Below, one piece after another: positions 50,996 through 62,122 of a DNA stretch of 64,000 nt; position 1 is the stretch's first letter, and each line of letters starts with the position of its first letter. The stretch is taken from contig NZ_CP086113.1 in NCBI RefSeq assembly GCF_016806835.2, positions 1-64,000 of the forward strand, written 5' to 3'. The notes under the pieces were generated by a model. That model saw nothing but the letters and a program-made list of their open reading frames with translations, was not told where the DNA came from and ran no database searches. Both the position numbers and the translations under genes were made by a program. This DNA comes from Skermanella rosea (GTDB lineage Bacteria; Pseudomonadota; Alphaproteobacteria; Azospirillales; Azospirillaceae).

Positions 50996-51907
50996 TCACT
51001 GCTCGGGTTGCGGCTTCATCCGGGCGTCGTCCAGCCGGCGCGCGAGCTGCTCGGCGAACTTGGCGGTCGCGACCGGCAGGGTGCGGCCCCGCTGCTGGCC
51101 CAGCACCAGCGGGCCGTGCGCCATGTCCAGGTCGCTCAGGGGAAGCGCCACGAGGCCGGGGTCGGTTTCCGGGACCGGCGCGCCGATCTCGATCTGGAAA
51201 GTCACCACGCGGCCCGACCGCGCCAGGTTGCGCAGCATCTCGAAGGAGTTGGATTCCAGCTCCACCGACAGCTTGGCCGAGCTGACGGACAGCAGGTCCT
51301 CCAGGATGGCGCGGGTCCCGAAGCTGCCGTCCGGCAGGGCGATCGGATACTGCGCGCAATCGCGCAGGCGCACGACCTTGTGCCCGGCCAGGGGATGGTC
51401 GGCGGCGACGATGGCGACGACCCGCTGGCCCAGCGTCATCAGCGGCTGGAACTCGGGCGTCCGGCGCGGGCTGAAGATGATCGCGAGGTCCGTCTCGTAC
51501 TCGCGCAGCATCCGGATCGCCGATCCCTGGTCCACCACCGAGACCTGGAAGCTGACCAGCGGGAAAGACTGCCGGAACTCCGATATCTGACGGGGCAGGA
51601 AGTAGTTCACCAGCGCCTGGCTGCACGCGATCCGGACATGGCCGCGCCTCATGCCGGACAGGTCCTCGATGTGCGAGCGTACCCGCTCCAGGTCGGCCGA
51701 CTGGGTACGCACCCAGCGGATGAAGCTCTCCCCCGCCGCGGTCAGCCGGATCCCATGGGCGGAGCGCTCGAAGATCGCGGCGCCCAGGTCCTCCTCCACG
51801 TCCTGGATCCGGCGCTGGAGCGCCGACGGCGTCACGTTCAGCTGTTCGGCCGCCTTCCGCAAGGAGCCGAACTTCGCCGCCTCGTCGACATAGCGCCAGA
51901 TCCGCAT
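50996..51907 (-). CDS. LysR-family regulator of the heterocycle operon
   Basis: A 303-aa LysR protein with the helix-turn-helix IWRYVDEAAKFGSLRKAAEQ, LNVTPSALQRRIQDVEEDLG and an effector domain from RRGHVRIACSQALVNYFLPR. The start at 51907 has GAGG 5 nt upstream; 51916 is an in-frame alternative. It is divergent from the binding-protein gene that opens the N-heterocycle operon, and a perfect palindrome lies between them, so it is the likely regulator (inference from layout). Confidence 0.92.
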   Translation of the reverse strand: MRIWRYVDEAAKFGSLRKAAEQLNVTPSALQRRIQDVEEDLGAAIFERSAHGIRLTAAGESFIRWVRTQSADLERVRSHIEDLSGMRRGHVRIACSQALVNYFLPRQISEFRQSFPLVSFQVSVVDQGSAIRMLREYETDLAIIFSPRRTPEFQPLMTLGQRVVAIVAADHPLAGHKVVRLRDCAQYPIALPDGSFGTRAILEDLLSVSSAKLSVELESNSFEMLRNLARSGRVVTFQIEIGAPVPETDPGLVALPLSDLDMAHGPLVLGQQRGRTLPVATAKFAEQLARRLDDARMKPQPEQ

Positions 51908-51932
51908 GTGCCTCATACCGGCATACCCCGCA

Positions 51933-51953
51933 GTGTAGACTTTCCGTCTACAC
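51933..51953. promoter_or_regulatory. Palindromic operator, likely LysR binding site
   Basis: Perfect 8-bp arms gtgtagac and gtctacac flank a 5-bp AT-rich spacer (tttcc). The size and T-N11-A geometry fit a LysR-type box. It lies 26 bp upstream of the LysR start and 109 bp upstream of the first gene of the divergent operon. Confidence 0.6.
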
Positions 51954-52061: not shown

Positions 52062-53105
52062 ATGCGCAGCGTCATCAGCCAATGGCCCGCGGTTCTGGCG
52101 GGCGCCCTGGTCGGGGCGGTCGGCCTGGCCGGCGCGGCATCCGCCCAGACACCGGTCAAGATGGTTCTCAACTGGAAATACCAGGGACCGCAGGCACTGT
52201 TCTTCATCGCCGAGGACAAGGGATACTTCAAGGCGGAGGGGCTGGACGTCACCATCGACCAGGGCGAGGGATCGGCCGCCTCCATCACCAAGGTGGCGAC
52301 GGGAGCCTACGACGCCGGGTTCGGCGACGTGAATGCGCTGATCACCCTGGCGGCCAAGTCGCCCGAGGAGGCGCCGGTCGCCGTCTTCATGATGTACAAC
52401 ACGCCGCCCTTCACGATCGCGGTGAAGGCGGACGGCCCGATCCGGACACCCGGGGACCTGGAAGGCAAGACCATCGGCGGCCCCGCCAACGACGGCGCGC
52501 TGAAGCTGTTCCCGGCGTTCGCCCAGGTCGCCGGCATCGACGCCGGCAAGGTCTCCGTCACCAACATGCAGGCGAACCTGCGCGAGCAGATGCTTCAGCG
52601 CGGCCAGGTGGACGGGGTTTTCGGCTACGTCAACACCATCGCCTTCAGCGCCAAGAGCGCCGGCATGGACCCGGACAAGGATTTCCGCTTCATCAATTAC
52701 GGCGACTACGGGATGGACCTCTATTCCAACGCGATCGTCGTGTCCAAGCCGTTCCTGAACCGGAACGGGGACGCGGTGAAGGGCCTGGTCCGGGCGATCA
52801 ACCGCGCGGCCAAGGACATGATCGCCGACCCCGCCGGCTCGGTCGCGGCCGTGATGAAGCGCGAGCCGCTGCTGAACGAAAAGGTCGAGATCGAGCGCAC
52901 CGTCGCCACCCTGCGGATGGAGATGAACCATCCCGAGATCGCCACGATCGGCCTGGGCGACGTGGACGACGATCGCCTGAAGCGCGCCATCGACATGGTG
53001 GCCAAGGCCAACGGCCTGGAGAACGCCCCGGAACCGTCCGCGGTCTTCACCGACGCCTACCTGCCGCCGCTGTCCGAGCGACCGACCTCCGTCATCAAGC
53101 AATAG
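52062..53105 (+). CDS. NMT1/THI5-like ABC substrate-binding protein (copy 1)
   Basis: A 347-aa periplasmic protein with a signal peptide to residue 28 (ASA before QTPV). The mature start VKMVLNWKYQGPQALFFIAE and GYFKAEGLDVTIDQGEGSAA, with KVATGAYDAGFGDVNALITL, is the NMT1/THI5-like fold used for pyrimidine, riboflavin and related ligands. A TAGGAGG is upstream of the ATG. A paralogue lies at 57071-58129 in the same operon; ATPase and permease genes lie between them. Confidence 0.92.
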   Translation: MRSVISQWPAVLAGALVGAVGLAGAASAQTPVKMVLNWKYQGPQALFFIAEDKGYFKAEGLDVTIDQGEGSAASITKVATGAYDAGFGDVNALITLAAKSPEEAPVAVFMMYNTPPFTIAVKADGPIRTPGDLEGKTIGGPANDGALKLFPAFAQVAGIDAGKVSVTNMQANLREQMLQRGQVDGVFGYVNTIAFSAKSAGMDPDKDFRFINYGDYGMDLYSNAIVVSKPFLNRNGDAVKGLVRAINRAAKDMIADPAGSVAAVMKREPLLNEKVEIERTVATLRMEMNHPEIATIGLGDVDDDRLKRAIDMVAKANGLENAPEPSAVFTDAYLPPLSERPTSVIKQ

Positions 53106-53119
53106 ACAGAAGAAGAACC

Positions 53120-53911
53120 ATGGAACTGGGTCTGAAATCGCGGGTCGTGATGATCACCGGCCCCGCCAAGGGAATGGGCGAGGCCGTCACCCTGGCCTTC
53201 GCGGCCGAGGGCTGCCGGCTGGCGCTGGTCGGGCGCGACCTCGACGTGATCGAGCCGGTCGCCGCCAAGGTCCGGGCGCTGGGCGCGGAGGCGATCGTGA
53301 TCCCCTGCGACATCACCGACGGGGCGCACTGCGCCGGGGCGGCCGAGCGGACGCTCGCGGCCTTCGGGCGGATCGACGTGCTGGTCAACGTGGCGGGCGG
53401 CTCCGGCCCGGTCGGCAAGACCGGCTGGGAGACCACCCGCGAGGAATTCGACGAGATCGTCGAACTGAACATGGCGGGCTGCTTCAACACCATGAGCGCC
53501 GTCATGCCGACCTTCATCGACCAGCGCTACGGCAAGATCGTCAATGTCGGCGGCACCTTCGGGATGCGCGGCCGGGCCGGCCGGATGGCCTATTCGGCAT
53601 CCAAGTGGGGCCTGCGCGGCATCACCAAGTCCTTCGCCCTGGAGGCCGGCCCCTACAACGTCAACGTCAACTGCGTGGCGCCGGGCATGGTCGAGGGGCC
53701 GCGCTTCCGCGGCAAGGTCGTGCCGGAAATGGCCCGGCGGCTGGGCATCACCGAGGAGGAGGCGGCCGAGCGGCACGCTGCAGACTACGCGCTGCGCCGA
53801 GTCTCCACCGGCGAGGACGTGGCCAAGGCGTGCCTCTTCCTCGCCAGCGACGCGGCCCGCCAGATCACCGGCGTCGACTTGCCGGTCGACGGCGGCTGGG
53901 CCTCCCTCTGA
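53120..53911 (+). CDS. Short-chain dehydrogenase/reductase
   Basis: A 263-aa classical SDR. Cofactor motif ITGPAKGMGEA, NVAGGSG, catalytic Tyr and Lys in YSASKWG, and the C-terminal ITGVDLPVDGGWASL. The usual catalytic Ser position is in VNVGGTFG, where Gly/Thr replaces Ser, so Thr may serve. It begins 14 bp after the binding-protein gene. In a heterocycle pathway it could reduce or oxidise a ring carbonyl or an open-chain product (inference). Confidence 0.9.
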   Translation: MELGLKSRVVMITGPAKGMGEAVTLAFAAEGCRLALVGRDLDVIEPVAAKVRALGAEAIVIPCDITDGAHCAGAAERTLAAFGRIDVLVNVAGGSGPVGKTGWETTREEFDEIVELNMAGCFNTMSAVMPTFIDQRYGKIVNVGGTFGMRGRAGRMAYSASKWGLRGITKSFALEAGPYNVNVNCVAPGMVEGPRFRGKVVPEMARRLGITEEEAAERHAADYALRRVSTGEDVAKACLFLASDAARQITGVDLPVDGGWASL

Positions 53912-53928
53912 CACAGGACGACAGGATC

Positions 53929-55377
53929 ATGGAAACCGGAAAGACCCTCGCCGACCTCGTCATCACCGGCGGCACCATCGTCACCGACCAGACCAGCTTC
54001 AGGGGCGCCGTCGCCGTCAAGGACGGCCGCATCCTGACGGTCGGCGCGGACGAGTCCATGCCGGCCGCGCGGGAGACCTTCGACGCGGCCGGCCTGCACC
54101 TGCTGCCCGGCGCGATCGACGCCCACGTCCATTTCCGCGAACCGGGCTATACCCACAAGGAGGATTGGCGGACCGGAACGGCGGCGGCGGCCATGGGCGG
54201 CGTCACCACCGTCTTCGAGATGCCCAACACCGACCCGCCGACCGGCACCGTCGAGGCGCTGAGGATCAAGCAGCGGGCGGCGGCGAAGGCTCATGTGGAC
54301 TACGGCCTGTACGGACTGCTAGCCGAGGACAACCTGGACCAGCTGGACGGCCTGGTCGCGGGCGGCGTCGCCGCGTTCAAGTGCTTCATGGGCAATACCT
54401 TCGGCAACCTGCCCTCCCCCTCCACCGGCGCCATGTTGGAAGGGTTCGAGATCATCGCGCGGCACGGGCTGCGCATCTCGCTCCATGCCGAGACCGCCTC
54501 CATCATGGCGTGGCGCCAGCGGAAGCTGATGGCCGCCGGCCGGCGCGACCCGCTGGCCCACCTGGCGTCGCGCCCCGCCGTGGTCGCGACCGAGGCGGTG
54601 TCGCGCGCCGCGATCCTGGCGGAATGGACCGGCGCCCGCATCCACGTGCTGCACATCTCCTCCGGCGACGAGCTGCGGCCGCTGCGGGAGGCGAAGGCGC
54701 GCGGCGTCGACGTCACCGGCGAGACCTGCCCGCACTACCTGCTGTTCGACGAGCGGGCCTATGACGACCTGGGCTCGATCATCCGGGTGAACCCGCCGGT
54801 CCGCGAACAGCACCACCAGCGTGCGCTGTGGGAAGGGGTGCGTGACGGCACGATCGACATGATCGCGACCGACCACGCGCCGCACGACCCCGCGGAGAAG
54901 GTGCGCGACGACATCTGGACGGCCGATTGCGGCTTCCCCGGGGTCGAGACCCAGATGGCGCTGATGCTGACCCAGGTGAACGCCGGCCGGCTGTCGCTGA
55001 GCGACTATGTCCGGCTGTCCTCGACGGCGCCGGCGAAGGCGTTCGGCCTGCATCCCCGCAAGGGGGCGATCGTCCCCGGCGCCGACGCCGACCTGGCGCT
55101 GGTGGACATGGCCCGGCGCGAGACGATCCGGGCCGAGGCGCTGCATTCCCGCGGCAGGATCACGCCGTTCGAGGGGTTCGAGACCGTGGGGGCGCCGATG
55201 CACACCCTGGTGCGCGGGCGCTTCGTGATGCGCGGCCGCCGGTTGGTCGAGGACTCCACCGGCTGGGGGCAGTCGGTCGGCCGCATCCAGTCCATGCCCG
55301 AGCCCCGGCTCCGCCATGTCGAGGAAACCACCGCGGCGATCACCGGCACCTTTCCGGCGGCCCGGGCGGCCGAGTGA
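53929..55377 (+). CDS. Dihydroorotase/allantoinase/dihydropyrimidinase-type amidohydrolase
   Basis: A 482-aa cyclic amidohydrolase. Binuclear metal site: His66 and His68 (DAHVHFREPG), carbamylated Lys151 (AAFKCFMGNT), His186 (SLHAETA), His242 (LHISSGDE) and Asp315 (ATDHAPHD). This group opens cyclic amides such as dihydropyrimidines, hydantoins, allantoin or dihydroorotate. The pattern is nearest allantoinase/D-hydantoinase; I cannot fix the substrate. It starts 17 bp after the SDR gene. A ring-opening enzyme alongside the AtzD-like one suggests two ring-opening steps or two substrates. Confidence 0.93.
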   Translation: METGKTLADLVITGGTIVTDQTSFRGAVAVKDGRILTVGADESMPAARETFDAAGLHLLPGAIDAHVHFREPGYTHKEDWRTGTAAAAMGGVTTVFEMPNTDPPTGTVEALRIKQRAAAKAHVDYGLYGLLAEDNLDQLDGLVAGGVAAFKCFMGNTFGNLPSPSTGAMLEGFEIIARHGLRISLHAETASIMAWRQRKLMAAGRRDPLAHLASRPAVVATEAVSRAAILAEWTGARIHVLHISSGDELRPLREAKARGVDVTGETCPHYLLFDERAYDDLGSIIRVNPPVREQHHQRALWEGVRDGTIDMIATDHAPHDPAEKVRDDIWTADCGFPGVETQMALMLTQVNAGRLSLSDYVRLSSTAPAKAFGLHPRKGAIVPGADADLALVDMARRETIRAEALHSRGRITPFEGFETVGAPMHTLVRGRFVMRGRRLVEDSTGWGQSVGRIQSMPEPRLRHVEETTAAITGTFPAARAAE

Positions 55378-55397
55378 AGACGGATCCGAGGACACCC

Positions 55398-56273
55398 ATG
55401 AAAACGGCGAAATCACCCGCGCTGGTCCCCGTGCCCATGGTGCCGGAACCGGACCCCCAGCCCCCGCGCAGGCTGTTCATCGAGCTGGAACGGGTCACCG
55501 TCTCCTACGGGAAGGGTCCGGGCGCCACGCAGGCGCTGGCCGAGATCTCGCTCCAGGTGGATGAGGGCGACTTCATCGCGCTGGTCGGACCGTCGGGCTG
55601 CGGCAAGAGCACGATCCTGAAGCTGGTCGGCGACCTGCTGAAGGCGTCGAGCGGCCACGTCTTCGTGGCCGGGCGGGAGGTCGGGGCCCAGGACGTGCGG
55701 ATCGGCATGGCCTTCCAGAACCCGACCCTGCTGCCCTGGCTGAGCATCCGCGACAACGTCATGCTGCCGCTCAAGATCGTGCAGCCGTTCCGGGCCGACT
55801 GGAAGCGCAAGCGGCACGGCGAGTACCGCGACCGGGCCGAGGCCCTGCTGGCCAAGGTCGGCCTGGGCGGCTTCGGCGGCAAGTATCCCTGGCAGCTTTC
55901 CGGCGGCATGCAGCAGCGCGCCTCGCTGTGCCGGGCGCTGATCCACGAGCCCAACCTGCTGCTGCTGGACGAGCCGTTCGGCGCACTGGACCAGTTCACC
56001 CGGGAGGAGCTTTGGGACATCCTCCAGACGCTGTGGATCGACGGCAAGCCGACCGTTCTGCTGGTGACCCACGACCTGCGCGAGAGCGCCTTCCTGGCCA
56101 ACCGGATCGTCGTGATGAGCGCCCGCCCCGGACGGATCCTGGTGGACGAGCCGGTCGGCTTCGCCCGCCCCCGCACGCTGGACACGACCTACCAGCCGGG
56201 ATTCACCAACCTGACCCACAAGCTGCGCACCCTGATCGTCGAGGCCCGGAGCGCCGCGGGAGGTACCCCATGA
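55398..56273 (+). CDS. NitT/TauT-type ABC transporter ATPase
   Basis: A 291-aa cytoplasmic ATPase. Walker A GPSGCGKS, Q-loop MAFQNPTLLPWLSIRDNVML (the family's NxTLLPW), signature LSGGMQQR and Walker B LLLLDEPFGALD are all present, with LLVTHDLRESAFLANRI. The family serves nitrate, sulfonate, thiamin-precursor and riboflavin importers. It overlaps the permease gene by 4 nt (ATGA) and energises import with one or both binding proteins. Confidence 0.95.
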   Translation: MKTAKSPALVPVPMVPEPDPQPPRRLFIELERVTVSYGKGPGATQALAEISLQVDEGDFIALVGPSGCGKSTILKLVGDLLKASSGHVFVAGREVGAQDVRIGMAFQNPTLLPWLSIRDNVMLPLKIVQPFRADWKRKRHGEYRDRAEALLAKVGLGGFGGKYPWQLSGGMQQRASLCRALIHEPNLLLLDEPFGALDQFTREELWDILQTLWIDGKPTVLLVTHDLRESAFLANRIVVMSARPGRILVDEPVGFARPRTLDTTYQPGFTNLTHKLRTLIVEARSAAGGTP

Positions 56274-57043
56274 CCAGCCTGAAACGGGAGAAGATCGCGT
56301 CAGCCTGCCTGATCGCCGGCGTCTTCGTGGCATGGGAGGTCGGCTGCCTGCTGTTCGGCATCAGCGAATACGTCCTGCCGCGCCCGTCCCAGATCGTCAT
56401 GGTGCTGGTGGAGCGCTGGCCCGCCCTGATGCCGCACGCGGTGCAGACGCTCTACACCACGCTGGTCGGGTTCGCGCTGGGCGTTTCCGCCGGGGTGCTG
56501 ATCGGGATGCTGATCGGCTCGTCCAGGCTGGCCTACAACGTGGCGTTCCCCCTGCTGGTGGGCTTCTCGTCCATTCCCAAGGTCGCGGTTGTGCCGATCT
56601 TCGTGCTGTGGTTCGGCGCCGGGACGGTGCCGGCGGTGCTCACCTCCATGATCATCTCGGTCTTCCCGGTGGTGGTGAACATGGCGACCGGGCTGGCGAC
56701 CACGGAACCGGAGCTGGAGGACGTGCTGCGCACCATGAAGGCGACCAAGCGCGACATCCTGCTGAACGTCGGGCTGCCGCGCGCCATGCCCTATCTGTTC
56801 GCCTCCCTCAAGGTCGCCGTCACGCTGTCCTTCGTCGGCACGGTCATCGCGGAGACGGTCGCGTCCAACCGGGGGATCGGCAACATGATGCTGATCGCCT
56901 CCTCCAACTTCAACGTCCCGCTGGTCTTCGCCGGGCTCTTCATCCTGGCCGGGCTGGGCATCGCGCTCTACGTCGTCTTCTCGCTGATCGAGCGCCGCGT
57001 CACCGGCTGGGCCAACCGCAAGACCGAATTCGCGATGGGCTGA
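56270..57043 (+). CDS. NitT/TauT-type ABC transporter permease
   Basis: A 257-aa membrane protein with six helices. Typical motifs: SEYVLPRPSQIVMVLVERWP, the EAA loop DVLRTMKATKRDILLNVGLP and AETVASNRGIGNMMLIASSN. It pairs with the ATPase just upstream; the binding-protein paralogue follows 27 bp later. Confidence 0.95.
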   Translation: MTSLKREKIASACLIAGVFVAWEVGCLLFGISEYVLPRPSQIVMVLVERWPALMPHAVQTLYTTLVGFALGVSAGVLIGMLIGSSRLAYNVAFPLLVGFSSIPKVAVVPIFVLWFGAGTVPAVLTSMIISVFPVVVNMATGLATTEPELEDVLRTMKATKRDILLNVGLPRAMPYLFASLKVAVTLSFVGTVIAETVASNRGIGNMMLIASSNFNVPLVFAGLFILAGLGIALYVVFSLIERRVTGWANRKTEFAMG

Positions 57044-57070
57044 GGCCCCCGCACAGCATCGGAGAACACC

Positions 57071-58129
57071 ATGATCGACATTTCACGCCGGGCCGCCCTG
57101 GCGACCGGGTTCGGCCTCGCCCTCGTTGCAGCGCAGCCGTTCGCAGCCACCCCCGCCCAGGCCCAGGAGCCGACGCCGATCCGCTTCACGCTGGACTGGA
57201 AGTACCAGGGCATCCACGCCTGGTACTTCGTCGCCCGGGACAGGGGTTATTTCCGCGACGAGGGGCTGGAGGTCACCATCGACCAGGGCGAGGGCTCCGC
57301 CGCCACCGTCACCCGCATCATGTCCGGCGCCTACGACGCCGGGTTCGGCGACATCAACGCCGTGATCCAGCAGGCGGCGCAGAAGCCGGGCGAGGCGCCG
57401 GTGATGGTCTACCAGATCTACAACCGTCCGCCCTTCGCGGTGCTGACCAGGACGGACAGCGGCATCGAGGACATGAAGGACCTGGCCGGCCGCAAGGTCG
57501 GCGGCCCGGCCGGCAGTGCCGCGACCCGGCTGCTTCCGGCGCTGCTGGCGCGGAACGGCGTCGCCGTGCCGTCGGTCGAGGTGCTGAACATGCAGCCCAA
57601 CCTGCAGGAGCAGATGCTGATCCGCGGCGAGGTCGCGGCCTCCCTGGTCTTCAACGTGACCAGCTACGTCAACCTGATCCAGCAGGGCCAGGACCCGGAC
57701 GGGGATTTCCGGTGGCTGGACTATGCCGACCACGGGCTGGACCTCTATTCCAACGGCGTGATGGTGTCCCGGGATCTTGCCCGCGACAAGCCGGAGGCGG
57801 TTCGGGGGCTGGTCCGGGCGATCAACCGGGCGGTGCAGGACGTGATGGCCGATCCGGACATGGGCGTGAAGGCGCTGACCGCGGTCGAGCCGCTGGTCGA
57901 TGCCGGAAGCGAGGGGCGCCGGGTGCGGTTCGCCTTCGACCGGTTGATGATCACGCCGGAAACGCGGAAGATCGGGCTGGGCGACGTGGACGACGCCCGG
58001 CTGGAGCGGTCCATCGCGGTGATGGCCGAAGCCTACGACCTGCCGCGGAAGCCCGAGCCGTCGCAAGTGTTCGACCGGTCGTTCCTGCCGCCGCAGGACC
58101 AGCGCCTCGTCGCCGGCGCGGGGAATTGA
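57071..58129 (+). CDS. NMT1/THI5-like ABC substrate-binding protein (copy 2)
   Basis: A 352-aa periplasmic protein with a twin-arginine-like signal (ISRRAALATGFGLALVAAQP) cleaved near AQA. It shares long blocks with copy 1: LDWKYQGIHAWYFVARDRGY, EGLEVTIDQGEGSAATVTRI, GAYDAGFGDINAVIQQAAQ, NMQPNLQEQMLIRGEV and GLVRAINRA. The two differ in the middle region that lines the ligand pocket. GGAG precedes the ATG. Confidence 0.92.
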   Translation: MIDISRRAALATGFGLALVAAQPFAATPAQAQEPTPIRFTLDWKYQGIHAWYFVARDRGYFRDEGLEVTIDQGEGSAATVTRIMSGAYDAGFGDINAVIQQAAQKPGEAPVMVYQIYNRPPFAVLTRTDSGIEDMKDLAGRKVGGPAGSAATRLLPALLARNGVAVPSVEVLNMQPNLQEQMLIRGEVAASLVFNVTSYVNLIQQGQDPDGDFRWLDYADHGLDLYSNGVMVSRDLARDKPEAVRGLVRAINRAVQDVMADPDMGVKALTAVEPLVDAGSEGRRVRFAFDRLMITPETRKIGLGDVDDARLERSIAVMAEAYDLPRKPEPSQVFDRSFLPPQDQRLVAGAGN

Positions 58130-58137
58130 GGCCAGAC

Positions 58138-59583
58138 ATGACGGAAAGATCCATCGCCTGCGCCGGCCTGCTGCACGGCAGGGGCTACGACCTGCGGGGG
58201 CCGAGCCGGCTCTCGCTCGACGGCGGCCGGATCGCCGGCGTGGCGGGGATCGGCGGGGAGGCCGACCCGCTGTTCGCCCTGCCGGTGCCGGTCAACGCCC
58301 ACGACCACGGCCGGCCGGTGCGGTCCAGCTCCTTCGGGGCGGCGGGCAAGCCGCTGGAGCTCTGGCTCCAGTACCTGGCGCTGCTGCCGGCGGTGGACCC
58401 GTACCTCGCCGCCGCGGCCTCGCTGGGCCGCAGCGCCCTGGGCGGGTCCGGCGCCGTCATGGTCCACCATACGCGGGTGCAGGGATTGACCCCGCTGCCC
58501 CTGGAAGCCGCCGAGGTCGCCCGCGCCGCCGCCGACATCGGGGTGCGGATCGGCTTCGCGGTGGCGCTGAAGGACCGCAACCCGCTGGTCTACGGCCCGT
58601 CGGAGGAGGTGCTGGCCCTGCTGCCGGAGGACGCCCGGCGCGAGATCGCCCGGCGGACCGGCAATGCCCCGATGCCCGTGGAAGACCAGATCCGCCTGGT
58701 CGAGGAGGTGGCCGGCGCCGCGGCCGGCGACCTGGTGGACGTGCAGTACGGGCCGACCGGCGTGCAGTGGTGCTCGCCCGGGCTGCTGCGCGCCGTCGCC
58801 GACGCCTCCGCCCGCACCGGCCGGCGGGTCCACATGCACTGCCTGGAGACGCGCTACCAGCGGGACTGGGCGGACCGGAACTTCCCTGAAGGAATGTTTG
58901 CCTTCCTGAAGGGGATCGGCTTGCTGTCGCCGCGCCTGACCCTGGCCCACTGCACCTGGGCGCGGCCGGAGGAGCTTGAGCTGATAGCCGAATCAGGCGC
59001 CACGATCGCGGTCAACACGGGCTCCAACCTGGGCATCCGGTCCGGCATCGCGCCGGTGGCGGAGATGGTCGCGCGCGGCTGCAAGGTAGCATTGGGCCTG
59101 GACGGGCTGACGCTGGACGAGGACGACGACGCGCTGGGCGAGATGCGCCTCGCCAACGCGCTGCATCGCGGCTGGGGATTCGACACCGCGATCGACGAGA
59201 GGGAGATGCTGCGGATCGCCCTGGCCAACGGGCGCGCCGCCGTGACCGGCCGGGACGAGGGCGGCGCCATCGAGCCCGGAGCGCCCGCGGACCTGCTGCT
59301 GCTCGACACGGACAAGCTGGATTCCGACCGGCTGGTGCCCGACCTGTCGCCGCGCGACCTGCTGTTCGCCCGCGCCGGCGCCGGCCATATCGCCGAGGTG
59401 ATCGTGGCGGGGCGGACGGTCGCGCGGCGGGGGAAGCTGACCGGCATAGACCACGACGCCGTCCAGGCGGAGCTGCTGGACCGGCTGCGCCACGGGATCA
59501 AGGAGAATGACGCCCTGCGGGCCGCCCTGCCGGAACTGGGCCGCGCGCTGCACCGGCATTTCGCGGCGGCACCCTGCTGCTGA
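58138..59583 (+). CDS. ATZ/TRZ-type amidohydrolase (cytosine deaminase-like)
   Basis: A 481-aa amidohydrolase-superfamily enzyme. Mononuclear metal site: His55 and His57 (NAHDHGRP), His234 (HMHCLETR), His271 (LAHCTWARPEEL) and Asp322 (LGLDGLTLDEDDD). This is the pattern of cytosine/guanine deaminase and triazine hydrolases (AtzB/TrzN), which remove amino or other groups from a heteroaromatic ring. Start at 58138, 8 bp after the binding-protein gene. It likely prepares the substrate of the next enzyme (inference). Confidence 0.9.
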   Translation: MTERSIACAGLLHGRGYDLRGPSRLSLDGGRIAGVAGIGGEADPLFALPVPVNAHDHGRPVRSSSFGAAGKPLELWLQYLALLPAVDPYLAAAASLGRSALGGSGAVMVHHTRVQGLTPLPLEAAEVARAAADIGVRIGFAVALKDRNPLVYGPSEEVLALLPEDARREIARRTGNAPMPVEDQIRLVEEVAGAAAGDLVDVQYGPTGVQWCSPGLLRAVADASARTGRRVHMHCLETRYQRDWADRNFPEGMFAFLKGIGLLSPRLTLAHCTWARPEELELIAESGATIAVNTGSNLGIRSGIAPVAEMVARGCKVALGLDGLTLDEDDDALGEMRLANALHRGWGFDTAIDEREMLRIALANGRAAVTGRDEGGAIEPGAPADLLLLDTDKLDSDRLVPDLSPRDLLFARAGAGHIAEVIVAGRTVARRGKLTGIDHDAVQAELLDRLRHGIKENDALRAALPELGRALHRHFAAAPCC

Positions 59584-59616
59584 GGCAGCCCAATGAACGG
59601 AAGACCAGGACACAGC

Positions 59617-60726
59617 ATGACATCACGTATTCGCCCCGGCGTCGCGGTCCACCGCGTCGCGACCACCGGCCCCGACGACGTGGCCGGGCTCGAACGGCTG
59701 GTCCGGGCGGGCGACCTGGACCCGGCCGGAATCGTCGCGATCCTCGGCAAGACGGAAGGCAACGGCTGCGTCAACGACTTCAGCCGGGGCTTCGCGACGC
59801 AAAGCCTCAAGCTGTTCCTCCAGGGGCATGTCGGTCGGGAGGCGGCCGGGCGCGTCTGCCTCGTCATGTCCGGCGGGACCGAGGGCGCCCTCTCCCCCCA
59901 CTGGATCGTGTTCGAGCGCCGGGAGTCGGACGAGCCGGCGCGCGGCCCGGCGCTCGCCATGGGAAGCGCCATCACCCCCGACCTGCCGCCCGAACATCTG
60001 GGCCGCCGCGCCCAGGTGGAAATGGTCGCCCGGGGAGTTGCCGACGCCATGGAGCGGGCGGGCATCGCCGATCCGGCCGCCGTGCATTTCGTCCAGGTCA
60101 AGTGCCCGCTGCTGACGGCGGCCCGCGCCGCCGAGGCCGTGGCCCGGGGCCGGGCGACCGCCACGCGCGACACCCTCAAATCCATGGGGCTGTCGCGCGG
60201 CGCCAGCGCGCTGGGCGTCGCCGTGGCGCTGGGCGAACTGGCGATCGGGGAGATTCCCGACGACGCCAACGGCGCGGACATGCGGCTGTGGTCCGGCCGG
60301 GCCAGCACCTCCGCAGGGATCGAGCTGATGGGGCATGAGATCCTGGTGCTCGGCATGAGCCCGGACTGGACCGGTCCGCTCGCCATCGACCATGCGGTGA
60401 TGGGGGATGCCGCCGACGTCGGGCCGGTGCGCGCGGCGCTGGCGCGGCTGGGCCTCGACGCCGAGGGGCAGCTCGACGGCCCCGCAAGGGCACGGGTCAG
60501 GGCCGTGCTGGCCAAGGCGGAGGCGTCGCGGACCGGCACCGTGCGGGGCCTGCGGCACACGATGCTGGACGACAGCGACATCTCCGCCACCCGGCATGCC
60601 CGCGCCTTCGTCGCAGGCGTGCTGGCCGGGACGATGGGCATGACCGACCTGTTCGTCTCCGGCGGGGCCGAGCACCAGGGACCGGACGGCGGCGGACCGG
60701 TCGCGATCATCGCGGAACGGGCCTGA
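59617..60726 (+). CDS. Ring-opening amidohydrolase (cyanuric acid hydrolase/barbiturase family)
   Basis: A 369-aa enzyme of the rare AtzD/barbiturase family. Its three repeats each supply a Lys/Ser pair: Lys45 (ILGKTEGNGCVNDFSRG) with Ser85 (MSGGTEG), Lys162 (QVKCPLLT) with Ser232 (ASTSAGIEL) and Lys300 (LAKAEASRTG) with Ser348 (VSGGAEHQGPDGGGPVA). Pairings follow the known structures of the family. It opens cyanuric acid to carboxybiuret or barbiturate to ureidomalonate. AGGA precedes the ATG at 59617. Which of the two rings it prefers cannot be read from sequence here. Confidence 0.94.
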   Translation: MTSRIRPGVAVHRVATTGPDDVAGLERLVRAGDLDPAGIVAILGKTEGNGCVNDFSRGFATQSLKLFLQGHVGREAAGRVCLVMSGGTEGALSPHWIVFERRESDEPARGPALAMGSAITPDLPPEHLGRRAQVEMVARGVADAMERAGIADPAAVHFVQVKCPLLTAARAAEAVARGRATATRDTLKSMGLSRGASALGVAVALGELAIGEIPDDANGADMRLWSGRASTSAGIELMGHEILVLGMSPDWTGPLAIDHAVMGDAADVGPVRAALARLGLDAEGQLDGPARARVRAVLAKAEASRTGTVRGLRHTMLDDSDISATRHARAFVAGVLAGTMGMTDLFVSGGAEHQGPDGGGPVAIIAERA

Positions 60727-60730
60727 GCCG

Positions 60731-61690
60731 ATGGCGGATCGGATCGAACTCCTCCCCGAACCCGGAACGGTGCATTGGGGCCATTTCGACGCGGCGCTGG
60801 CCCCGGTCGCCGAGATCGCCGGCGGCGACACCATTGTCATCCATACCGTGAGCGGCGGGCGGGACGATCTGCCGCCGGCCGGCTCCGGCATGACGGTCCG
60901 GCCCGAGCATTGGCGCATCCTTGATGCCGTCGAGCCGGACATGGGGCCGCACATCATGACCGGCCCGATCGCCGTCCGGGACGCCGAGCCGGGCGACGCG
61001 CTCCGGGTGGAGATCCTGGACGTGGCGCTACGCGAGGACTGGGGCTTCAACCTGATCCGGCCGGGCGCCGGAGCCCTGCCCGACCGGTTCCCCGACCACC
61101 GGCGCATCCATCTGCCGATCGACAGGGCGGCGGGAACGGTGCTGACGCCCTGGGGGCTGGAGATCCCCGCCCGCCCCTTCTTCGGCGTGATGGGCACCGC
61201 GCCGGCGCCGGAGCTGGGGCGGCTCACCTCGATCGTTCCCGGCGCCTTCGGCGGCAACATCGACAACAAGGAGCTGACGGCCGGGTCGGTCCTGTACCTG
61301 CCGGTCTGGACGGAAGGCGCGCTGTTCTCCGCCGGGGACGGCCATGCCGCCCAGGGCGACGGGGAAGTCTGCCTGACCGCGGTGGAGACCGGCCTGACCG
61401 GAACCTTCCGCATTGATCTGGTCAAGCGGGCCGGACTGGCGTTTCCCCGGGCGGAAACGCCGGGCCACCTGATCACCATGGGCTTCGACGAGGACCTGGA
61501 CGAGGCCGCGCGCACGGCCCTGATAGAGATGATCGGGCTGATCACTGAACGCACCTCGCTGTCCGAGGAGGAAGCCTATCGGCTGTGCAGCCTTGCGGCC
61601 GACCTCCGCGTCACGCAATTGGTGAACCGGCGCAAGGGCATCCATGCCATGCTGGGGCGCTGGGCGCTCGGGACGAAACCAACCCCCTGA
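60731..61690 (+). CDS. Acetamidase/formamidase-family amidase
   Basis: A 319-aa cytoplasmic enzyme of the FmdA_AmdA family. Motifs include GTVHWGHFDAALAPVAEIAG, the VMGTAPAPELGRLTSIVPGA segment and the metal-type FGGNIDNKELTAGSVLYLPV and GDGHAAQGDGEVCLTAVE blocks. It hydrolyses small amides to ammonia and acids. It begins 4 bp after the AtzD-like gene, so it probably acts on the ring-opened product, such as an amide or ureido acid (inference). Confidence 0.92.
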   Translation: MADRIELLPEPGTVHWGHFDAALAPVAEIAGGDTIVIHTVSGGRDDLPPAGSGMTVRPEHWRILDAVEPDMGPHIMTGPIAVRDAEPGDALRVEILDVALREDWGFNLIRPGAGALPDRFPDHRRIHLPIDRAAGTVLTPWGLEIPARPFFGVMGTAPAPELGRLTSIVPGAFGGNIDNKELTAGSVLYLPVWTEGALFSAGDGHAAQGDGEVCLTAVETGLTGTFRIDLVKRAGLAFPRAETPGHLITMGFDEDLDEAARTALIEMIGLITERTSLSEEEAYRLCSLAADLRVTQLVNRRKGIHAMLGRWALGTKPTP

Positions 61691-61708
61691 CGGGGAGGAA
61701 GAGAGATC

Positions 61709-62122
61709 ATGGAAAAGCTTAAGGTCACCATCGACGAGATGGTCTTCGACGCGCGGCTGGAACTCCAGGCGGCGCCGAAGACCTGTGCCGCCTTCATCGA
61801 GCGCCTGCCGTTCGACTCCCAGGTCGTCCATGTCCGCTGGAGCGGCGAAGGCGTCTGGATCCCGCTCGGCGACTATGACTTCGGCGTGGGATACGAGAAC
61901 CACACGAGCTATCCTGCGCCGGGGCAGATCATCCTGTATCCCGGCGGGATCAGCGAGACCGAGATCCTGCTGGCCTATGGCGGGGTGCAGTTCGCCAGCA
62001 AGATGGGCCAGCTTGCCGGCAACCACTTCATCACCCTGACCTCGGGACTGGAGAACCTGCCCGAGGTCGGCCGCCGCGCCCTGTGGCAGGGCGCCCGGAA
62101 GATCCGGTTCGAGGCGGCGTAA
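61709..62122 (+). CDS. DUF3830-family protein (cyclophilin-like fold)
   Basis: A 137-aa protein with the DUF3830 pattern: LELQAAPKTCAAFIERLPFD, HVRWSGEGVWIPLGDYDFGV, ENHTSYPAPGQIILYPGGIS and YGGVQFASKMGQLAGNHFIT. The function is not established; members recur beside amidohydrolases and pyrimidine or hydantoin genes. It is the last gene of the operon, 18 bp after the amidase gene, with GGGGAGG upstream of the ATG. Confidence 0.88.
   Translation: MEKLKVTIDEMVFDARLELQAAPKTCAAFIERLPFDSQVVHVRWSGEGVWIPLGDYDFGVGYENHTSYPAPGQIILYPGGISETEILLAYGGVQFASKMGQLAGNHFITLTSGLENLPEVGRRALWQGARKIRFEAA

Follow-up and report, generated by a model that had tools for sequence, protein, structure and literature searches.

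A LysR-linked uptake and hydrolysis operon of Skermanella rosea, probably for small cyclic ureides or imides, with a probable cyanuric acid hydrolase as an apparent addition

Introduction

What is imported and dismantled by an operon that carries a gene of the cyanuric acid hydrolase type and no gene for AtzE, AtzF or BiuH? The question is raised by the first 64 kb (64,000 nucleotides, here called the window) of contig C3 (NZ_CP086113.1) in the 7.76 Mb genome of Skermanella rosea, for which Skermanella stibiiresistens and S. aerolata are the closest named relatives and four genomes are classed in the same genus. The operon (52062-62122) comprises ten open reading frames (ORFs) on the + strand with intergenic gaps of -4 to 27 bp, followed by 321 bp before the next gene. 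It encodes, in this order, an NMT1/THI5-like binding protein (SBP1), an SDR family oxidoreductase, a cyclic amidohydrolase of the dihydroorotase/allantoinase/hydantoinase type (DHO), an ABC ATPase and permease, a second binding protein (SBP2), a deaminase-like amidohydrolase of the ATZ/TRZ type (TRZ), the ring-opening amidohydrolase AtzD, an acetamidase/formamidase family protein (FmdA) and a DUF3830 protein. An earlier reading made from the letters alone (the sequence-only reading) had named the families of these ten same-direction genes, and all of them are confirmed by Pfam (NMT1 twice, SDR, Amidohydro_1 twice, ABC_tran, BPD_transp_1, Amido_AtzD_TrzD, FmdA_AmdA and DUF3830). Its proposal of an import-and-dismantle operon for a cyclic urea or imide is supported here. 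Cyanuric acid hydrolases are known mainly through the degradation of industrial triazines, and the partner enzymes, the regulator and the pair of binding proteins encoded here give a starting point for seeking the natural ligand of such a hydrolase.

Proposed function of the operon

It is considered reasonably likely that the operon is a LysR-linked system for the uptake and hydrolysis of small cyclic ureides or imides, to which AtzD was added as a cyanurate branch finished by genes on another contig, C1. The core would be made of the SBP1-ABC importer, SDR and DHO, often with SBP2 and TRZ and sometimes with FmdA and DUF3830. A cyclic ureide would be imported, adjusted by SDR through a redox step or by TRZ through loss of an amino group, and its ring would be opened by DHO with the help of DUF3830. 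AtzD would form a second ring-opening branch joined to this core, in which cyanuric acid is most likely hydrolysed to 1-carboxybiuret. Biuret would arise from this product and be processed by BiuH (or AtzE/AtzH) and lastly by AtzF, all encoded on C1. The substrate, the order of steps and all reactions and regulation in this scheme are deduced from sequence, and the scheme is built on what was observed directly: the gene content and its conservation, the kinship and active site of AtzD, the presence of finishing genes and an operon that lacks AtzD.

Identity of AtzD

AtzD is highly likely to be a cyanuric acid hydrolase. With the equivalog model of that enzyme, NF052395, it reaches 549.5 bits (cut-off 360), its top PDB match is 4nq3, and all five solved cyanuric acid hydrolases outscore the solved barbiturase 5hwe (234.9 bits). 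The window protein agrees with 4NQ3 at all ten active-site positions compared (three Lys, three Ser, three Arg and Glu230 in 4NQ3 numbering), and the 84 aligned ingroup AtzD proteins keep every one of them. Position 188 of the window AtzD is Arg, which is replaced by Gln in the barbiturase subgroup according to the main text of PMC4051656. Since Arg188 is shared by three more distant AtzD relatives, it argues against a barbiturase more than it argues for cyanurate.

The protein crystallised as 4NQ3 is the Azorhizobium caulinodans enzyme, for which hydrolysis of cyanuric acid is reported in the main text of PMC4051656. Its sequence is 100% identical over 351 amino acids to an ORF of genome G118 (genus Azorhizobium), where the order is LysR, then c8-SBP1-SDR-DHO-ATPase-permease-SBP2-TRZ-AtzD; c8 is a RutB/BiuH-like protein that scores under both the RutB and the BiuH cut-offs. 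Loci with at least four of the five core genes SBP1-SDR-DHO-ATPase-permease, assigned by identity thresholds in a script, are called type B here, and because of this identity the crystallised enzyme can be placed in a type-B operon. Its AtzD is about 65% identical to that of the window with the same ten active-site residues, and the operon type is shared from LysR to AtzD. The differences are that c8 is present and that neither FmdA nor DUF3830 is matched before the stretch read comes to its end, 3.9 kb beyond AtzD. The neighbourhood of AtzD is not discussed in the available text of PMC4051656, and the terms 'genome' and 'gene cluster' do not appear in its main text.

Finishing genes on contig C1

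The sequence-only reading had noted that the usual finishing genes are absent from the operon, and in a family scan AtzE, AtzF and BiuH were indeed not found among the ten genes (no ureidomalonase model was tried). Such an absence at the level of the operon is misleading, because the same genome holds these genes on another contig. A stretch of C1 at about 390-402 kb encodes BiuH (424.8 bits, cut-off 370) together with a second BiuH relative (259.6 bits, 71% identical to its rhizobial counterpart), AtzF (774 bits, cut-off 511), AtzE (700 bits, cut-off 461), an AtzH/HpxZ-like protein (214 bits, cut-off 135) and a BMP-type binding protein. A second allophanate hydrolase is encoded at C1:229180 (815 bits). 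From what the available text of PMC7948467 says on such pairs we infer that the second BiuH relative is TrtA-like. With BiuH, AtzF, AtzE and the AtzH-like protein on C1, the acetamidase and DUF3830 proteins need not replace any finishing gene, and the picture of a self-contained operon with an alternative end to ring breakdown is not supported.

Among 99 relatives (the window genome included), BiuH exceeds its cut-off in five of the seven that have AtzD and in 8 of 92 without it; for allophanate hydrolase the figures are 6/7 and 19/92. Allophanate hydrolase is also over the cut-off in 23 of the 24 other type-B genomes. In Skermanella genome G001 BiuH is represented by two partial matches side by side (4967071-4967732 of its contig C1), as if the gene were broken.

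The core without AtzD

Core genes are found together where AtzD is absent. A search with DHO matched five Azospirillum plasmid records, and in four plasmid loci (TSH58, A. ramasamyi, A. brasilense and A. argentinense) the order is LysR, then SBP1-SDR-ATPase-permease-SBP2-TRZ-FmdA, together with a DHO-DUF3830 pair. These operons share LysR and nine genes with the window and differ from it in having DHO on the other strand and no AtzD in 21-23 kb; AtzD is absent from the annotation of all four loci, and tblastn was negative in the two tested. In two of the loci, identity to the window proteins is 72-88% (73-88% within the LysR and SBP1-to-FmdA set, DHO 61%), and SDR is sister to the Skermanella SDR. 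Azospirillum is also not among the 60 plasmid records listed of the 131 with an AtzD match, a search that did not extend to the chromosomes of those strains. Genome G097, which has no AtzD match, holds LysR followed by SDR-DHO-TRZ, and a Novosphingobium plasmid stretch holds LysR followed by SDR-DHO, again with no AtzD. Because Azospirillum, G097 and Novosphingobium all hold core genes without AtzD, the core is regarded as a unit of its own, and AtzD is probably an add-on to it.

Distribution and evolution

The comparison of gene order across genomes covered 86 loci, namely 80 AtzD loci in named genomes, which are the best 80 among 565 relatives, and six further ones; these are near relatives only, and several are short contigs that may hide neighbours. 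Three Skermanella genomes (G001, G002, G003) have the same ten genes in the same order and a fourth (G004) has nine, lacking FmdA. Type B accounts for 25 of the loci, the rhizobial BiuH type for 40, and 21 belong to neither; among the latter, L187 and L188 have no AtzD, and L089, L092 and L109 resemble cut-off ends of a type-B operon. The type-B operon is a recurring one in Alphaproteobacteria. No description of it was found among the titles and abstracts listed from the open-licence literature.

Around the core, the gene content of the 25 type-B loci varies: TRZ is present in 19, SBP2 in 17, c8 in 13, DUF3830 in 9, a LOG-type gene in 8 and FmdA in 6. SBP2 is usually accompanied by TRZ (16 loci with both, 1 with SBP2 alone, 3 with TRZ alone, 5 with neither; Fisher p 0.006), c8 and FmdA exclude each other (both 0, c8 only 13, FmdA only 6, neither 6; p 0.005), and c8 and SBP2 tend to be found apart (both 5, c8 only 8, SBP2 only 12, neither 0; p 0.002), these p-values being ones that ignore shared ancestry and come from several gene pairs tried. 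Seven of the 40 rhizobial-type loci match c8 at 36-37%, matches that are taken as cross-hits to BiuH-like genes.

A single origin of the type-B operon was considered and dropped, for the AtzD tree (87 rows) gave no single clade. For the 25 type-B rows the tree requires 9 changes, of which at least 7 are forced, versus 21.9 in shuffles; setting L089, L092 and L109 aside lowers this to 7 changes, at least 5 of them forced. AtzD and the core have thus been joined, or parted, repeatedly. In locus L084 AtzD lies between DHO and ATPase, and in L111 it is on the far side of LysR.

The companion enzymes

Models do not settle the family of DHO: it exceeds the cut-off of the allantoinase equivalog TIGR03178 by 17.6 bits (375.5 against 357.9) and that of the dihydroorotase subfamily TIGR00857 by 49 (328.3 against 279.1), and it falls 85 bits short of the dihydroorotase equivalog PRK09060 (397, cut-off 482); PRK06189 (376.5, cut-off 631) and PRK08044 (277.4, cut-off 688) are not passed either. 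Among solved structures, an allantoinase and an L-hydantoinase come nearest. DHO carries HVHFREPG and MPNT and so does not show the motifs of allantoinase 3HM7 (HVHFNEPG and MPLN). The pattern HVHxR[E/D]PG with MPN is kept in the DHO of 27/27 loci, and HxHxR[E/D]PG with MPNT is present in four further DHO relatives and not in the hydA found beside DUF3830. The R and MPN we take to be the carboxylate-binding residues of dihydroorotases, and as DHO keeps them the core substrate may be a carboxylated cyclic ureide.

TRZ has HDH and HMHxxE, presumably deaminase motifs; it matched 23 NCBIfam models and scored far under the cut-off of each. SDR is under the cut-off of each of 25 NCBIfam models listed (222 matched), so that no specific activity is assigned. 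FmdA scores 76.5 bits against the NCBIfam formamidase model (cut-off 500) and does not qualify as a formamidase by this model. DUF3830 weakly resembles the uncharacterised protein of PDB 3kop; its structure model was poor (mean predicted local distance difference test, pLDDT, 56), and no fold search was based on it.

In 9 of 12 annotated DUF3830 loci read, a hydantoinase- or DHO-type gene is the direct neighbour or one gene away: DUF3830 forms the pair with DHO in the four Azospirillum operons, stands beside hydA in three loci and one gene away from it in a fourth, and in a Halalkalicoccus urate-breakdown cluster it directly follows an amidohydrolase gene. DUF3830 therefore looks like a companion of cyclic-ureide hydrolases more than of AtzD. 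S. stibiiresistens has AtzD and no FmdA, and in Azospirillum both FmdA and DUF3830 persist where AtzD is lacking; for these reasons they are unlikely finishers of the AtzD reaction, and the suggestion that they stand in for the usual enzymes is not favoured.

Several observations weigh against the proposed function and must be set beside it. Because BiuH is also found in 8 of 92 AtzD-less relatives, its presence is no proof of coupling to AtzD, and with Skermanella supplying four of the five genomes that combine the two, the independent test is a weak one. Among 23 other type-B genomes only 10 have BiuH above its cut-off (G118 was outside this search), so the finishing route must vary, or be missing, in many of them. 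Passing the allantoinase model would direct DHO to allantoin. The Azospirillum DHO, only 61% identical and placed differently, may mean that the operon there has another substrate. FmdA and DUF3830 are not clearly linked in the 25 type-B loci (both 4, FmdA only 2, DUF3830 only 5, neither 14; p 0.14), most of which lack one or both. In Halocatena the DUF3830 gene has an M20 hydrolase beside it and an amidohydrolase two genes off, and in Thalassospira and Natronorubrum no cyclic-ureide hydrolase is listed near it.

Alternative explanations

The operon might instead scavenge oxidised purine fragments, which would be the natural, pre-industrial role of a cyanuric acid hydrolase; this is judged unlikely. 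AtzD would take cyanuric acid, DHO and DUF3830 hydantoin-type fragments, TRZ guanidino or amino forms, and FmdA or c8 linear ureides. The idea draws on oxidation chemistry, as chemical oxidation of uric acid can give cyanuric acid and triuret (available text of PMC7948467) and oxidation of 8-oxoguanine leads to cyanuric acid, hydantoins and oxalurate (available text of PMC4666366). It also draws on the Halalkalicoccus urate cluster with DUF3830, on the AtzH-like protein of C1, which passes the HpxZ 'oxalurate catabolism' model, and on a LOG-type gene (TIGR00730) near 8/25 type-B, 0/40 rhizobial-type and 1/21 other loci (L109), for which cytokinin phosphoribohydrolase model matches are under the cut-off. 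Cyanuric acid was not known as a natural product according to the main text of PMC4051656, and a 2025 paper (PMC12342508, in its available part) places it in Paramecium secretions. Among the matches listed, the open-licence literature held nothing useful on a link between uric acid, cyanuric acid and oxonate. The operon offers a testable way to ask what cyanuric acid hydrolases do in nature, a role for which the scavenging of oxidised purine fragments is a speculative candidate.

A second alternative, which we judge improbable, is that the operon is self-contained after all, with FmdA (elsewhere c8) and DUF3830 finishing the AtzD product by another route. FmdA does start 4 bp after AtzD, and c8, which resembles RutB and BiuH, never occurs together with FmdA in the 25 type-B loci, as if the two were mutual stand-ins. 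In 12 of the 23 other type-B genomes the BiuH model moreover gives only weak matches (135.6 bits or less), and eight of these have c8, one FmdA and three neither. Against it stand the BiuH, AtzE and AtzF genes of the window genome itself, the persistence of FmdA and DUF3830 without AtzD in Azospirillum and of AtzD without FmdA in S. stibiiresistens, and the habit of DUF3830 of adjoining mostly hydantoinase-type genes elsewhere.

Catabolism of an orotate- or dihydroorotate-type pyrimidine is likewise not expected to be the answer. DHO would then be a catabolic dihydroorotase with SDR as redox partner, TRZ would deaminate an amino analogue, c8 or FmdA would remove the carbamoyl group and AtzD would serve a side product. 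The dihydroorotase motif (HxHxR[E/D]PG with MPNT) is present in DHO, its HVHxR[E/D]PG and MPN are constant across the loci compared, and TIGR00857 is passed; a haloarchaeal DHO relative (44% identity, Haloterrigena plasmid, L195, 8992-12035) lies near a gene for a quinone-dependent dihydroorotate dehydrogenase. DHO nevertheless scores above the cut-off of the allantoinase equivalog and below those of the dihydroorotase equivalogs listed, missing the best by the margin given above, its nearest structures are those of an allantoinase and an L-hydantoinase, and the operon has no dihydroorotate dehydrogenase and would leave AtzD unexplained.

The oxidative pyrimidine pathway with AtzD as barbiturase could appeal to the inclusion of barbiturase in the AtzD family, to the match with 5hwe and to the NMT1/THI5-like proteins, which make pyrimidine-like uptake plausible. 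It is very improbable, for the cyanuric acid hydrolase equivalog is passed by far, the five solved hydrolases match better, the Gln site of barbiturases is Arg, and barbiturate inhibits cyanuric acid hydrolases without being turned over in the main text of PMC4051656, whose enzyme belongs to a type-B operon; barbiturate, named in the sequence-only reading, is accordingly an unlikely substrate of AtzD.

Comparison with known systems

The operon with an AtzD branch, as preferred here, is a conserved type built of known enzyme kinds. In known cyanurate operons BiuH, or AtzE/G, and AtzF stand beside AtzD, whereas in Skermanella such genes are on C1. The rhizobial cyanurate/biuret cluster consists of a BMP-type ABC importer, BiuH, AtzD, a second cysteine hydrolase and AtzF; its AtzD is 60-69% identical in 40 loci, and a related set of BMP-type ABC, BiuH, second cysteine hydrolase and AtzF is also seen on Skermanella C1. 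Skermanella differs in that AtzD is part of an SDR/DHO/TRZ operon, with importer and companion enzymes from other families. With the atzDGEHF operon of Pseudomonas sp. ADP, as described in the available text of PMC6219798, the genome shares AtzD, AtzE and an AtzH-like protein, but these are not in one operon, and the AtzD operon has its own importer, SDR, DHO, TRZ, FmdA and DUF3830.

Features of the window and minor observations

The coordinates of the operon, of its putative regulatory region and of the neighbouring genes are given in Table 1. LysR relatives at 48-99% identity are present in 24/24 other type-B loci. The palindrome between the LysR gene and SBP1 is the sole 8-5-8 match in the window at up to 3 mismatches (chance mean 0.06); it is retained in G001, has one spacer change in G002 and is degenerate in L055 and L056.

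Table 1. Operon genes and neighbouring features (positions in the window; the last two entries extend past or lie beyond its end)
Feature	Position	Strand	Remarks
LysR-type regulator	50996..51916	-	Pfam LysR_substrate and HTH_1; divergent from operon; start taken as ATG at 51916, longer reading possible
Candidate LysR site, perfect inverted repeat	51933..51953		8-bp arms, 5-bp spacer; between LysR gene and SBP1
SBP1, NMT1/THI5-like binding protein	52062..53105	+	PF09084 134 bits; N-terminus signal-peptide-like by eye
SDR family oxidoreductase	53120..53911	+	adh_short_C2 174 bits
DHO, dihydroorotase/allantoinase/hydantoinase-type cyclic amidohydrolase	53929..55377	+	TIGR03178, TIGR00857; HVHFREPG, MPNT
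ABC ATPase	55398..56273	+	PF00005 108 bits
ABC permease	56270..57043	+	PF00528 92 bits
SBP2, second NMT1/THI5-like binding protein	57071..58129	+	PF09084 137 bits
TRZ, ATZ/TRZ-type amidohydrolase, deaminase-like	58138..59583	+	Amidohydro_1 110 bits; HDH, HMHCLE motifs
AtzD, cyanuric-acid-hydrolase-type ring-opening amidohydrolase	59593..60726	+	Amido_AtzD_TrzD 485 bits; NF052395 549.5 bits
FmdA, acetamidase/formamidase (FmdA_AmdA) family	60731..61690	+	PF03069 121 bits
DUF3830 protein	61709..62122	+	PF12903 115 bits
Second NMT1-type ABC importer	62444-65121	+	starts inside window, runs past its end
Amidase-signature protein	65156-66421	+	beyond window, after second importer

Of the five Skermanella genomes, G000 and G002 have the second importer and the amidase adjoining the operon, and neither was found in the downstream stretches read of G001, G003 and G004, which places them outside the conserved unit; they were rejected as parts of the operon for this reason and for the 321-bp gap. 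The amidase was also rejected as AtzE (183 and 180 bits, cut-offs 461 and 426) and as AtzF (allophanate hydrolase 165, cut-off 511).

AtzD relatives of 48-49% identity are also found in G118, in G119 (genus Azorhizobium) and in Skermanella G004 (L181, L182 and L049), in differing neighbourhoods with weakly similar amidase or ABC genes. The LOG-type genes belong to loci L061, L067, L071, L072, L074, L075, L090 and L111, plus L109 and L192, at varying positions. A 2OG-Fe(II) oxygenase gene (DIOX_N and 2OG-FeII_Oxy in L187), or a relative of 37-45% identity, lies near L187, L188, L104, L098, L088 and L192, all of them SDR-DHO, TRZ or AtzD loci that do not belong to the main operon type. Plasmids of Citrobacter, Klebsiella and Enterobacter (for example NZ_CP133851.1 and NZ_CP026371.1), many of those listed being from human samples, carry AtzD-family genes with about 52% identity.

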